Assembly: GCF_009883795.1 (NCBI RefSeq)
Contig: NZ_CP033868.1
Location: 186,001-250,000 of the forward strand
From: Coxiella endosymbiont of Amblyomma sculptum
GTDB lineage: Bacteria > Pseudomonadota > Gammaproteobacteria > Coxiellales > Coxiellaceae
Direction of reading: 5' to 3'
Length of the DNA: 64,000 bases
A program made the position numbers and the translations under genes. This document shows positions 10,523 through 37,634 of the stretch, in pieces. The notes under the pieces are model-generated. The model was not told the DNA's origin. It searched no databases and was given only the letters and a program-made list of their open reading frames with translations. The number at the start of each line of letters is the position of its first letter. Within the stretch, counting starts at the first letter, position 1.

Positions 10523-13500
10523 ATGTTGTTTTTGCAAGGTTTTCAAATTTATACACCGTTTCGTCGACAGAAAATCTTACAACGCTTAAAACAAAAATAT
10601 CCTAAAATTCGCAGTGTTGAAGCAACGTACGGGTACTTTGTCGAATGTGAAAGGTCTTTGTGTTCTGAAGAACGAAAGCAATTGCGGTGCCTATTGTCGA
10701 ACGCCCGGTTTACCTATCCTAGATTTTCCAAAGAGTTTTCTTGTTGGGTTCTTCCTCGTCTGGGCACTGTATCTTCTTGGTCATCGAACGCTACGGAAAT
10801 CGCACGCAATTGTTGTATGCCTTTTGTCACTCGGATTGAACGAGGAATCTTTTATCGTCTGTTTGGAATTTCTCGTGAGGAGAGTGAACAAAATTTTCAA
10901 ATAGCGTTAGAGTTGTACGATCCGTTAATTGAGTCGGTTTTGTTCTCTACGGATGCGTTGACTAGGATTTTCCAACGCCCTCCGCTCTTAAATTGTTCTT
11001 ATGTCAATTTATTGGAAAAAGGAAAAATTGCTTTGCTACAAGCAAATCAATTGCTAGGTCTTTCCTTGAGTGATAAGGAGATTCAGTACTTATCGAAATC
11101 CTTTCGTCAACTCAATCGCAATCCAACAGATGTTGAATTAATGATGTTTGCCCAGATAAATTCCGAACACTGTCGACACAAAACATTTAACGCAACGTGG
11201 AGAATTGATGGGAAACTAGAAGAAGAATCATTGTTTTCGATGGTTCGTTATACTCATAGGATAAATCCAAGACAAGTTTTGGTAGCGTATCGCGACAATG
11301 CAGCGGTTGTCAAAAGTTCTACTAGTCACATTCTCGAAATCAATTCCACTACCCGTTTCTATGAGAAAATAAGAAAACATCTGTGTAAAGTGTTAAAAGT
11401 AGAAACGCACAATCACCCTACCGCTGTATTACCCTTTTCTGGTGCAGCGACAGGAAGCGGTGGCGAAATTCGGGATGAAATGGCCACAGGTCGTGGTGGA
11501 CAAAGTCAAGCAGGGATGACTGGATTTTCCGTATCGCATCTTCGTATTCCTGGTTTTTCCCAACCTTGGGAGAAGAAAGACTTTAAAAAAAAATCAAAAT
11601 TGTCATCACCTTTAGAAATCATTTTGCGCGGACCTGTTGGTGCAGCTTCATTTAACAACGAATTTGGGCGACCAACCATTTGTGGTTATTTTCGAACGTT
11701 GGAATGCGAAGGGAATTTTTTTCCTAAAACCGATGAAGAAAAAGTTTCTTACGGATACCACAAACCCATTATGATTTCTGGAGGCATTGGACAAATTTAT
11801 CGCTCGCAAGTTGAAAAAAAATCTTTTAAAAAAAATACGTTTCTGGTAGTTATTGGTGGCCCCGCTATGCCTATAGGTTTAGGAGGAGGATTGGCTGCTT
11901 CTCGGGCAAGTATCGTTGAGTCTTTAGATTTTGCGTCTGTACAACGCGCAAACCCTGAGATGCAACGTCGTACACAAGAATTAATTAATGGATGTGTTGC
12001 TTTAGGAAAAAAAAATCCCATTTTAAGTATTCATGATGTAGGTGCTGGGGGTTTATCAAATGCTTTTCCAGAATTGGTTAGGACCAGTGGATGTGGAGGA
12101 GAGATTGAATTGAGGGACATTCCTATCGATGCTCCAGGGATGACTCCCTTAGAGATATGGTGTAATGAGGCACAGGAACGATTTGTTCTTGCCATTAGAC
12201 CGAAAGCATTGAAGACATTTTGTTCTATTGCTGAACGCGAACGCTGCCCTTTTGCAATTGTTGGATATGCAAAGCCGAAGAAAGAATTGGTAGTGAATGA
12301 TAACCATTTTCATAATTGCCCCGTCGATGTACCGTTGACTCTTTTATTCGATACAGTGCCTCCAATACAGAGAAAAGACCGACAACGATCATTCTGTAAC
12401 TTTTTTCCCCTTGATGTCGCGCATCTTAATCTAGCCGATATTGTCAAGAGAATTTTGCAATACCCTACAGTAGCAGACAAAAGTTTCTTAATCACCATTG
12501 GTGATCGTTCTGTAGGCGGAAAAATCGCTCGTGATCAAATGGTGGGTCCTTGGCAAGTACCGGTAGCAGATGTAGGAGTGGCGACAAATAGTTTTTTCGG
12601 CTATCAGGGACAAGCTTTAGCGATCGGCGAGAGAGCTCCGGTGGCTATGGTTGATTCCGTAGCATCGGCAAGAATAGCGATTGGAGAAGCCATTACCAAT
12701 ATAGCTGCTGCACCTATTGAAAAAATTTCTCAAATTGTATTGTCGGCAAATTGGATGGTGGCAGAAAATTTTCCGGGAGAAGGGGCCAATTTGTATGAAT
12801 CCGTTCGAGCGGTTACAAAAGAATTTTGTCCTGCATTGGGAATTTGTATTCCAGTAGGAAAGGATTCTTTGTCTATGCGTACTTCTTGGAAAGAAGGAAA
12901 TTGTACAAAAAATGTAATATCGCCACTTTCTTTAATTGTTACAGCTACAGCACCTGTATTAGATGTTCGTTACACACTCACTCCACAATTGAAAATCGAT
13001 ATGGAAACCCGATTGTTGCTTATCGATTTAGGTAAAGGCGCTCATCCATTAGGAGGTTCCTGTTTGACTCAAGTGTACGATGGGATAGGAGGAAAACCTC
13101 CTGACGTTGACGATCCTTATCTACTACGGAATTTTTTTCAAGCAATTCAAATGCTCAATCGCAGAAAACTATTGCTGGCGTACCACGACCGTTCTGATGG
13201 AGGATTGCTAACAACTTTATGTGAAATGGCTTTTTCTGCACATATTGGAATTACTATTGAAATACATTCTTTAGGAAAAAATCCAATAGCCAGTGTGTTT
13301 ACCGAATCTTTAGGATCGGTTATTCAAGTTAGAAAAGAAAACGTTGTCAGTGTACTAAAAATTTTAGAGAAATACAGACTAAAAATGCACACACACGTTA
13401 TTGGAAAACTTAACAAATCAGACGCATTTATTTTAAATTATCGAGGAAAAAGTATTTTTCAAGAAAATCGTACTGTCTTGCATCGGTGGTGGAGCGAGAC

Positions 13501-20447: not shown

Positions 20448-20600
20448 GGAAGTTGACTTCCCGGTTGGATTTGCTATTGTAAGTTCGTGCAAAATCTTCC
20501 TATTTAGGAAGACGGGGTTTTTTGGTTTTGGAGACAAGACTTTAAATTTCCCTTGTACGATAAGAGGAGTGTCATTTTTCTTCTCTCCAAAACCAAAAAA
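20448..20600 (+). promoter_or_regulatory. Structured leader between ribD and ribE with three nested-order hairpins
   Basis: Three inverted repeats occur within 153 bases: GGAAGT/ACTTCC (20448-20461), TCTTCCTA/TAGGAAGA (20495-20512) and a 16-bp perfect pair (20518-20533 with 20585-20600, loop 51 bases). The first two have two-base centres. The region could be a terminator/antiterminator, an RNA stabilising element or decayed DNA. I looked for the conserved FMN riboswitch segments and did not find them. Confidence 0.4.
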
Positions 20601-29443: not shown

Positions 29444-29737
29444 CCTGCTTTCTGTATGTATGTATGATAAACGCGCATAAGAGGGTAGAATTTTTTCGTA
29501 TACAAGAAGTGTTTTGTTCTTTACGAGGTCAAATGATACAAAATAAAAATGAAGATTCTGTGTTTGTTTCTAATCGGTCAGAAAGGATTAAATTCTGATT
29601 TCCTTTCTCTTGGAAAGGAGAGTTTGCTATTTGTTTGTGTTGGTTTGTGTTGTGGACATTCTCATGGACTTAAGATTAAATCTAGGCAGAACATACAAAA
29701 TCTTAAAATCTTAGCGACTTCGAAAGATTGAAAATTC
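29444..29737. other. Spacer between tRNA-His and tRNA-Lys
   Basis: About 294 bases without a recognisable gene. A small hairpin CCTTTC/GAAAGG lies near 29600. Nothing else can be supported. Confidence 0.5.
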
Positions 29738-29849
29738 GAAAAAAGATGAGACTTTGTGGGCCGTTAGCTCAGTTGGGAGAGCAGCTGACTCTTAATCAGC
29801 GGGTCCACGGTTCGAGCCCGTGACGGCCCACAAAGTCTCATCTTTTTTC
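29738..29849 (+). repeat. Perfect 27-bp inverted repeat enclosing tRNA-Lys
   Basis: 29738-29764 and 29823-29849 are exact reverse complements. The inner 7 bp are the tRNA acceptor stem. The outer 20 bp (GAAAAAAGATGAGACTTTGT on the 5' side) are flanking DNA, so the precursor RNA could extend the acceptor helix without a break. The 3' arm ends in a run of six T and could also act as a terminator. Confidence 0.97.
29758..29830 (+). tRNA. tRNA-Lys(CTT)
   Basis: 73 bases. Acceptor GGGCCGT/ACGGCCC, D arm GCTCAGTTGGGAGAGC, anticodon stem GCTGA/TCAGC with loop CTCTTAA (CTT at 34-36), T arm CCACGGTTCGAGCCCGTG. CCA is not encoded (CAA follows). It is enclosed by a perfect inverted repeat that would continue the acceptor helix by 20 bp. 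Confidence 0.95.
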
Positions 29850-29945
29850 CAAAAAACGAGCGCTGTTTTACTCAATGTTGCCTAGTTTAGAAGAAAATGA
29901 CTTTTAAATGATTTGAATTTTCATAAGGAGGAAAGAATATTTTAT

Positions 29946-30027: not shown

Positions 30028-31218
30028 ATGACACTTCAAACCATTGCTTCTATAGTCGAAGAAAGGCCGGTACAACCTGTGTTTGCCTTTAGACCTTATG
30101 CTCTGGAGAAAGCAATCGATTTTTTTCGCACAAAATTCAAGGGGCGTGTTTTATACGCAGTAAAAACAAATCCAGAGCAGCATGTCGTTCAATTGGTGCA
30201 CAATTGTGGTATAACCGCGTTTGATGTAGCCTCTCATGAAGAAATGCATACTGTCAGAGAATTTGTACCGTCAGCAGAGCTCTATTTTATGCATCCTGTA
30301 AAATCGCCTTATGCAGTTTTTGAAGCTTACTTTAATTACAGTGTGCGTCATTTCTCTCTTGATTGCTTGGATGAATTGAATAAAATTTTGCGTTGTACAA
30401 AAAATGCCAAAGATCTCTGTTTACATTTACGGCTTGCCATTCCAAATACGTTCTCCGAATTTAATTTGTCGGAAAAGTTTGGTATTGACCTGTATGAAGC
30501 TCCTAAATTGTTGCAAATAATACGAAAGGTAGCTTATAAATTGGGTGTTACATTCCATGTAGGATCACAATGTATGCATCCCAATGCTTATCGTATTGCG
30601 ATTCGTATGGCCAATAAAGTAATTAGCGAGTCTGGTGTAGAAATCGAATATTTTAATGTAGGTGGGGGGTTTCCTTCTATTTATCCAGGTATGATTCCTC
30701 CAGCACTGCACATCTATTTCGAGGCGATTTACGCCGAATTCTCAAAAATAGTTTATGAGAAACCTCATATAGAATTACTTTGCGAACCGGGCCGTTCGCT
30801 AGTAGCAGAAAGTACTTCTGTAGTAGTAAATGTCGAATTGCGAAAGGGTGGAACCTTGTACATCAACGACGGTACTTACGGGAGTCTTTTTGACGCTGGA
30901 ATTCCTCACTTTATTTTTCCTGTGCATTTACTGAGTGCAAATCGCCCTACAGACAGAAATCTCTTGCCTTTTAGTTTTTACGGTCCTACTTGTGATTCTC
31001 TCGATCACATGAAAGGGCCATTCTATCTTCCTAACGACGTTAAAGAAGGCGATTATATTGAGATCGGGCAGATGGGCGCTTACGGTCGAACTTTATCAAC
31101 CACTTTCAATGGTTTTAAACAAAAAGAAGGCGTTGTTATGGTTTCAGATGAACCTCTCATGACAATGTATTCTGACGACTGTATCACACAAGAGCCTTTG
31201 GAAGTGATTGCCGCTTAA
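30028..31218 (+). CDS. Ornithine/lysine decarboxylase, PLP fold type III
   Basis: 396 residues. Alanine-racemase-fold decarboxylase like eukaryotic-type ODC. The PLP lysine is Lys46 in LYAVKTNP; HVGSQCMHP and GGGFPSIYPG bind the cofactor phosphate; the C-terminal GPTCDSLDHM supplies the active-site Cys/Asp, and GAYG.T.STTFNGF is the usual end. It would produce putrescine (or cadaverine) from ornithine (or lysine); specificity cannot be read by eye. It opens a three-gene cluster with a deoxyhypusine-synthase-like gene (31 bases on) and an agmatinase-like gene. Confidence 0.88.
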   Translation: MTLQTIASIVEERPVQPVFAFRPYALEKAIDFFRTKFKGRVLYAVKTNPEQHVVQLVHNCGITAFDVASHEEMHTVREFVPSAELYFMHPVKSPYAVFEAYFNYSVRHFSLDCLDELNKILRCTKNAKDLCLHLRLAIPNTFSEFNLSEKFGIDLYEAPKLLQIIRKVAYKLGVTFHVGSQCMHPNAYRIAIRMANKVISESGVEIEYFNVGGGFPSIYPGMIPPALHIYFEAIYAEFSKIVYEKPHIELLCEPGRSLVAESTSVVVNVELRKGGTLYINDGTYGSLFDAGIPHFIFPVHLLSANRPTDRNLLPFSFYGPTCDSLDHMKGPFYLPNDVKEGDYIEIGQMGAYGRTLSTTFNGFKQKEGVVMVSDEPLMTMYSDDCITQEPLEVIAA

Positions 31219-37305: not shown

Positions 37306-37634
37306 CTTCTTTATCTTTAAAAGCAGCTTCTTTAAAGCTTTATTCTTTAAAGCTTTAAAGTCAAACCAGAGAGGCCCAATTTGATCTGGGGGCAAATTTT
37401 GGGAAGCAAATGATTCCAAATTTCCTGTGACGGTTTGTTTGTTGTAACATGTTGTACAATCCTCAAAAAATTCCAGAATCCAGGAAACCGAATCGATCCC
37501 GGGCTTTGTGGTGTCCGATTCATTCGGGACTGCCTGCGCCCCTTCACCTCCCCCCCGTCACCTCCGGAAGCCTCTGAAAGTGAAAGAAAGACTAGCTCGA
37601 TCTTCCGCCGAAAAACACGAGATCTTTTTCTCCG
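37306..37634. other. Intergenic region after hslU with slippage repeats
   Basis: The first 60 bases are TTTAAAG-rich, including an exact 15-bp tandem duplication (37328-37342, 37343-37357) that ends in the palindrome CTTTAAAGCTTTAAAG and may act as terminator structure for hslVU. The rest is more GC-rich than its surroundings, with C-runs near 37540-37570. I find no recognisable gene or remnant. In E. coli kdsB would follow ycaR here; I do not see it. Confidence 0.55.
37328..37357 (+). repeat. Exact 15-bp tandem duplication
   Basis: The unit TTCTTTAAAGCTTTA occurs twice head to tail, no mismatch, directly downstream of hslU. It is probably replication slippage; the palindromic content could make a hairpin. 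Confidence 0.9.

Follow-up and report, generated by a model that had tools for sequence, protein, structure and literature searches.

When the leader of a precursor tRNA pairs with its 3' end, the acceptor stem becomes longer and E. coli RNase P, which has to unwind it, is slowed (PMC9433436). In rRNA precursors, leader-trailer helices are opened by RNase III; the one around E. coli 23S rRNA is 27 bp long, and its cleavage leaves the 8-bp helix H1 (PMC10250234). Template switching has been documented as a source of perfect RNA stems that appear in one event (PMC8794818) and perfects quasi-palindromes in E. coli (PMC7202029, PMC6357072); for quasi-palindrome template-switch mutations, Ripley (1982) and Dutra and Lovett (2006) are cited in PMC7202029.

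We compared these systems with a tRNA-Lys(CTT) locus in the window, i.e., the whole stretch of 64,000 nucleotides analysed here, which belongs to a genome consisting of a single 622,921-bp contig. As in the E. coli G(-2)U(-1) precursors (PMC9433436), position -1 pairs with A73 and position -2 with the next base, but those precursors pair over about 2 bp and the tRNA-Lys(CTT) flanks over 20 bp. With the rRNA helices (PMC10250234) the locus shares a long perfect leader/trailer helix that runs without a break into the terminal stem of the mature RNA, and the bacterium encodes RNase III. In contrast to them, the helix surrounds one tRNA, is not conserved in relatives and displays no covariation, and its cleavage is a prediction. 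Like template-switch (quasi-palindrome) mutations (Monttinen and Loytynoja 2022, PMC8794818), it is a perfect inverted repeat found in one lineage beside a pre-existing short stem and yields a perfect RNA hairpin, whereas its loop is the whole 58-nt tRNA core, the acceptor stem is lengthened by 20 bp and the ancestral state can be approached only indirectly. No comparable leader-trailer helix on any bacterial tRNA was found in the open-access literature searched. The structure around tRNA-Lys(CTT) is real and very unusual, and we regard it as most likely the product of a recent error in DNA copying at a tolerant site, not a new kind of device.

The helix around tRNA-Lys(CTT)

The features of the locus, all on the plus strand, are the following.
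29683..29709, +: candidate promoter, weak and located upstream of the helix (TAGGCA, 15 nt, TAAAAT); where the relatives have their -10 box, there is none here
29727..29736, +: ATTGAAAATT, which may be left over from an ancestral leader directly next to the tRNA, containing the 8-nt TGAAAATT that equals the leader end of the related genome G007 (G007 leader match)
29738..29757, +: 5' arm (leader), 20 nt, GAAAAAAGATGAGACTTTGT, perfectly complementary to A73 plus the trailer, probably newly made (inverted-repeat search; G007 leader match after removal of 21 nt)
29738..29764, +: 5' half of the perfect 27-bp stem, i.e., leader arm plus 5' strand of the acceptor stem (inverted-repeat survey)
29758..29830, +: tRNA-Lys (anticodon CTT), G1 to A73, CCA not encoded (ARAGORN; Rfam RF00005, 66.4 bits)
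29823..29849, +: 3' half of the perfect 27-bp stem, i.e., 3' strand of the acceptor stem, A73 and trailer arm (inverted-repeat survey)
29830..29849, +: 3' arm, A73 plus 19 trailer nucleotides, ACAAAGTCTCATCTTTTTTC, with a T6 run inside (inverted-repeat search)

Read from 29738 to 29849, the locus consists of GAAAAAAGATGAGACTTTGT, GGGCCGT ... ACGGCCC, A73 and CAAAGTCTCATCTTTTTTC. It had been claimed that 20 bases on each side of the gene are exact complements which prolong the 7-bp acceptor stem and even pair A73. Indeed, the seven acceptor pairs are continued flush and with no bulge by 20 further pairs, giving 27 bp (29738-29764 / 29823-29849) in which A73 (29830) is paired with T(-1). Just beyond the perfect 27 bp there is a C/C mismatch followed by two further pairs, so that the full arms (29735-29764 / 29823-29852) have 29 of 30 positions paired.

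The fold of the 151-nt region was far more stable than expected (z = -8.1; none of the shuffles was equally stable), and the 20-bp extension is predicted to contribute about -32 kcal/mol. Both this stability and the 27-bp length agree with the double strand of at least about 20 bp, enclosing an RNA, that marks leader-trailer helices opened by RNase III. All cloverleaf stems are intact according to ARAGORN, Rfam and the predicted fold. Within the extended helix, the cloverleaf is 2 kcal/mol less stable than the plain minimum; for the mature tRNA alone, an identical gap is predicted. Since the gap is equal with and without the arms, there is no sign that the arms cause misfolding.

A chance match of this length had been considered negligible, and the numbers bear this out. 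With a complementarity probability of 0.276 per flank position, derived from local base composition, a flush 20-bp extension is expected with a probability of 6.6e-12 per tRNA gene, or 2.5e-10 over the 38 tRNA matches in the genome. Among 151 distinct tRNA genes in the sampled stretches of this and related genomes, 106 had no flush extension, 33 had 1 bp and 11 had 2 bp; the remaining one, tRNA-Lys(CTT), had 20 bp. An inverted-repeat survey (loop up to 150 nt) that covered 223 kb of the genome identified the 27-bp stem as the longest inverted repeat, while shuffled sequences gave at most 13 bp. The helix is thus apparently unique. No further copies of the arms were found elsewhere in the genome: the other matches had 3 mismatches, which is the level of the reversed-pattern control. 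As the arms are single copy, they are not a dispersed element.

Origin of the arms

The closest relative compared, G005 (656,901 bp), has the same order of tRNA-Ser, dapE, dapD, tRNA-Pro, tRNA-Arg, tRNA-His, tRNA-Lys(CTT) and odc. Its tRNA-Lys(CTT) flanks are unrelated to those described here and non-complementary, and no inverted repeat is present at the syntenic locus. Because the gene order is shared and the repeat is not, the arms are lineage-specific among the genomes compared. The helix was also sought at tRNA-Lys(CTT) of G001, G004, G007, G008 and G009 and was absent in all of them; as no other compared tRNA-Lys(CTT) locus carries it, conservation by compensatory change was not observed. 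Selection may nevertheless act on keeping both arms.

The original prediction had called for an alignment in related genomes that would reveal the newer arm, and this comparison pointed, weakly, to the 5' arm. The intergenic flanks of G005 are too diverged for confident alignment, and direct alignments of the arms with the flanks of relatives were near background; the best one (z = 2.5, 3' arm vs G007) came from the shared CATCTTTTTT and was not significant over the number of tests made. When 21 nt beside the tRNA were removed on the 5' side, TGAAAATT came to abut GGGCCG exactly as at the leader end of G007. This 8-nt run was unique among 280 upstream positions, the next best being 5 nt; it is AT-rich, and the partner is G007 and not the closest relative G005. 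Removal of the whole 3' arm restored no similarity. Removal of its first 10 nt aligned the T-run with that of the G007 trailer, and the trailer of G005 has a T-run too. Since the T-run aligns with its counterpart in G007, it may be old. The promoter is also displaced: G001, G004, G005 and G007 have a -10-like box no more than about 17 nt away from the tRNA, and this position is occupied here by the 5' arm, with the nearest promoter candidate being weak and located upstream of the helix. Taken from these sequence matches, the view that the 5' arm is an insertion copied from the trailer is suggestive only.

We consider it fairly probable that the tRNA-Lys(CTT) flanks became perfectly complementary when, recently and in this lineage, replication switched template, with the 7-bp acceptor stem as the primer. 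In this event, the strand being synthesised towards the 5' side of the tRNA would have folded back on itself at the acceptor stem and used about 20 nt of the trailer as its template, whereby the 5' arm would have been inserted between the old leader and the tRNA, and the nascent strand would then have gone back to its template. A flush, perfect, one-sided extension at the acceptor stem is what stem-primed self-copying of a folded nascent strand gives. The reverse-complement arms are perfect and flush with a pre-existing short stem (20 bp on the 7-bp acceptor stem), as is typical of template-switch products, and the state is derived, given the lack of such a repeat at the syntenic locus of G005. 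Snap-back synthesis primed by the acceptor stem had been put forward as the origin of the repeat, and the flush start at this stem, the absence from syntenic G005 and the single-copy arms all fit it. We infer the copying event and its direction, starting from what was observed: the perfect flush helix, its uniqueness, the single-copy arms and the absence in G005. If this origin is correct, the locus would provide a clean case from nature in which the gene of a structured RNA acquired a long enclosing RNA stem in a single step.

Consequences for the precursor and alternative explanations

The tRNA-Lys(CTT) transcript is predicted to form a 27-bp stem with the tRNA core at its tip. Before RNase P action and CCA addition, this helix would have to be opened by RNase III or by unwinding together with exonucleases. 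The expected route would be RNase III entry, exonucleolytic trimming, RNase P cleavage and CCA addition; RNase III entry is expected since the enzyme is encoded (TIGR02191, 211 bits, above the cut-off) and opens comparable rRNA helices. Both consequences suggested earlier stand as predictions by analogy: hiding of the RNase P site would fit the slow processing of lengthened acceptor stems (PMC9433436), and cutting by RNase III would fit the presence of its gene. RNase III-dependent maturation is plausible, and a known mutational process best accounts for the helix itself. A profile search detected no RNase Z above the cut-off in this genome. It could be proposed that, in a reduced genome with no recognisable RNase Z, tRNA-Lys(CTT) maturation starts with a cut in the leader-trailer helix and not with the usual endonucleolytic entry; we regard this RNase III-first maturation as decidedly improbable. 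If true, it would mean that a single mutational step gave a tRNA a processing stem like those of rRNAs. The locus would also test, in nature, how much longer an acceptor stem can become before RNase P fails. If mature tRNA is made, RNase III (or unwinding) is able to rescue a precursor that textbook processing should reject; if it is not made, a tRNA gene has been caught being lost during genome reduction.

This latter outcome corresponds to an explanation in which the helix is the means of silencing: it blocks RNase P and further processing, and a dispensable tRNA is heading for loss. Pairing that lengthens the acceptor stem does inhibit RNase P (PMC9433436), and the usual promoter position is overwritten. 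Furthermore, the genome contains a tRNA-Lys(TTT) gene, AAG is the minor lysine codon (18% in the sampled genes), and in G002, G003 and G006 only tRNA-Lys(TTT) was matched as tRNA-Lys; since the best tRNA-Lys match in these three genomes is the TTT gene, loss of the CTT gene is suggested there. However, all cloverleaf stems are intact and the closest relative G005 retains tRNA-Lys(CTT), which makes silencing quite unlikely. The same observations on tRNA-Lys(TTT) also bear on the template-switch origin: the helix would be tolerated because tRNA-Lys(TTT) can also read AAG and the CTT gene is apparently lost in several relatives. Damage to tRNA-Lys(CTT) is probably tolerable, and the cell can probably do without this tRNA.

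A selected function is invoked if the helix is a terminator or insulator, in which the tRNA and the arms form a strong stem ending in U6 (with A6 opposite, hence bidirectional) that stops the transcript before odc. The A-run, stem, T-run layout is indeed that of bidirectional intrinsic terminators: T6 follows the stem core, A6 lies upstream, odc is downstream on the same strand, and the T-runs recur in the G005 and G007 trailers. In contrast to such terminators, the U-run lies within the stem, where U6 is predicted to pair with A6, and the loop is the 58-nt tRNA core, so that a short-loop G+C-rich stem followed by an unpaired U-run was not found here. Moreover, G005 lacks such a helix, a terminator does not need a perfect copy extending into the acceptor stem, and terminator-like sites were only mildly above shuffles in the genome (24 vs 16.5; 20 vs 14.5). 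The proposal that the 3' arm with its T-run could be a terminator is thus weakly supported, given the paired U-run and the mild excess of such sites, and we rate a selected terminator as unlikely. Hairpins are difficult for sequencing, and one arm could in principle come from a fold-back read error. Nevertheless, the genome is a single contig and the genes to either side of the helix are arranged as in G005, thus there is no sign of a misjoin and an assembly or sequencing artefact is very unlikely. Finally, tRNA genes are common integration sites, and the arms could be the end of a mobile element or the remnant of an attachment site. But attachment sites yield direct and not inverted repeats, the arms are single copy, none of the long ORFs nearby stood out as an integrase and the locus shares its gene order with G005; we consider this origin extremely improbable.

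Other inverted repeats and neighbouring sequences

The genome-wide scan for inverted repeats that had been proposed was run over the 223 kb mentioned above, with the tRNA-Lys(CTT) helix as the longest repeat and shuffles reaching at most 13 bp. Perfect inverted repeats that are not terminator-like were present elsewhere in the genus as well, some of them within ORFs, and judging from their sequences they look like template-switch products. In the same genome, a perfect 14-bp palindrome (L114:13201-13230, contig 13201-13230) lies in a conserved GTPase-like (MnmE-like) ORF (L114:12120-13535), coincides with one extra codon compared to G005 and G007, and resembles the outcome of a template switch within coding sequence. 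One 15-bp palindrome of G005, located in an ORF of 1080 amino acids, coincides with a 1-codon insertion that is absent from relatives. G007 (L073, L130-L133, L165-L169) is rich in perfect inverted repeats that are unique and have short loops: 20 with a length of 14 bp or more were counted in 200 kb, compared to a shuffle expectation of about 0.1 per 100 kb; several of them are within ORFs and have no T-runs. Inverted repeats of 27-38 bp were detected at L144:1607, L148:4810, L151:7372 and L152:12618; a motif resembling GAGCGAAGCGGAATACG is common to those belonging to G008 and G009, which look REP-like, i.e., like a repeat family.

Loss of ExoI-, ExoVII- or SbcC-like exonucleases was considered as a cause of these repeats and rejected, as it did not correlate with inverted-repeat density across the genus. 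ExoVII (xseA) and the C-terminal domain of ExoI were not found in this genome, G005 and G007, and SbcC was below the cut-off in all genomes searched. G000 and G005 have few long inverted repeats; G008 and G009, with intact xseA, have more, partly belonging to repeat families.

The second long inverted repeat of the window (20518-20600; 17 bp perfect, 22 positions at 95%) sits in the gap between two riboflavin-pathway-like ORFs. Since its T-run is outermost on the 5' arm and its A-run outermost on the 3' arm, it is not terminator-like. No counterpart was found in the G005 stretch upstream of ribE. This is the other long inverted repeat found in the window besides the tRNA-Lys(CTT) helix; the cdsA repeat, which had been suggested as a further product of the mechanism, could not be linked to the helix. 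At 37328-37360, after an HslU-like ORF, there is a tandem CTTTAAAGCTTTA unit that is also palindromic, with a tandem repeat of 15 bp and inverted arms of 13 bp.

Several genera belonging to the family (L012, L013, L019, L025, L032) have a copy of the leader and the first 20-26 nt of tRNA-Lys about 130-150 nt before tRNA-Lys. These partial copies, just upstream of the true tRNA-Lys, run on into unrelated hairpin-rich sequence; they appear to be a partial duplication. The decarboxylase-like ORF that follows tRNA-Lys in the window (odc, 30028-31218) is kept in 10 of 10 genomes of the genus. A single scan with its protein retrieved only distant relatives (46-53% identity) from proteobacterial records, several of them alphaproteobacterial, a distribution hinting at an old horizontal transfer.
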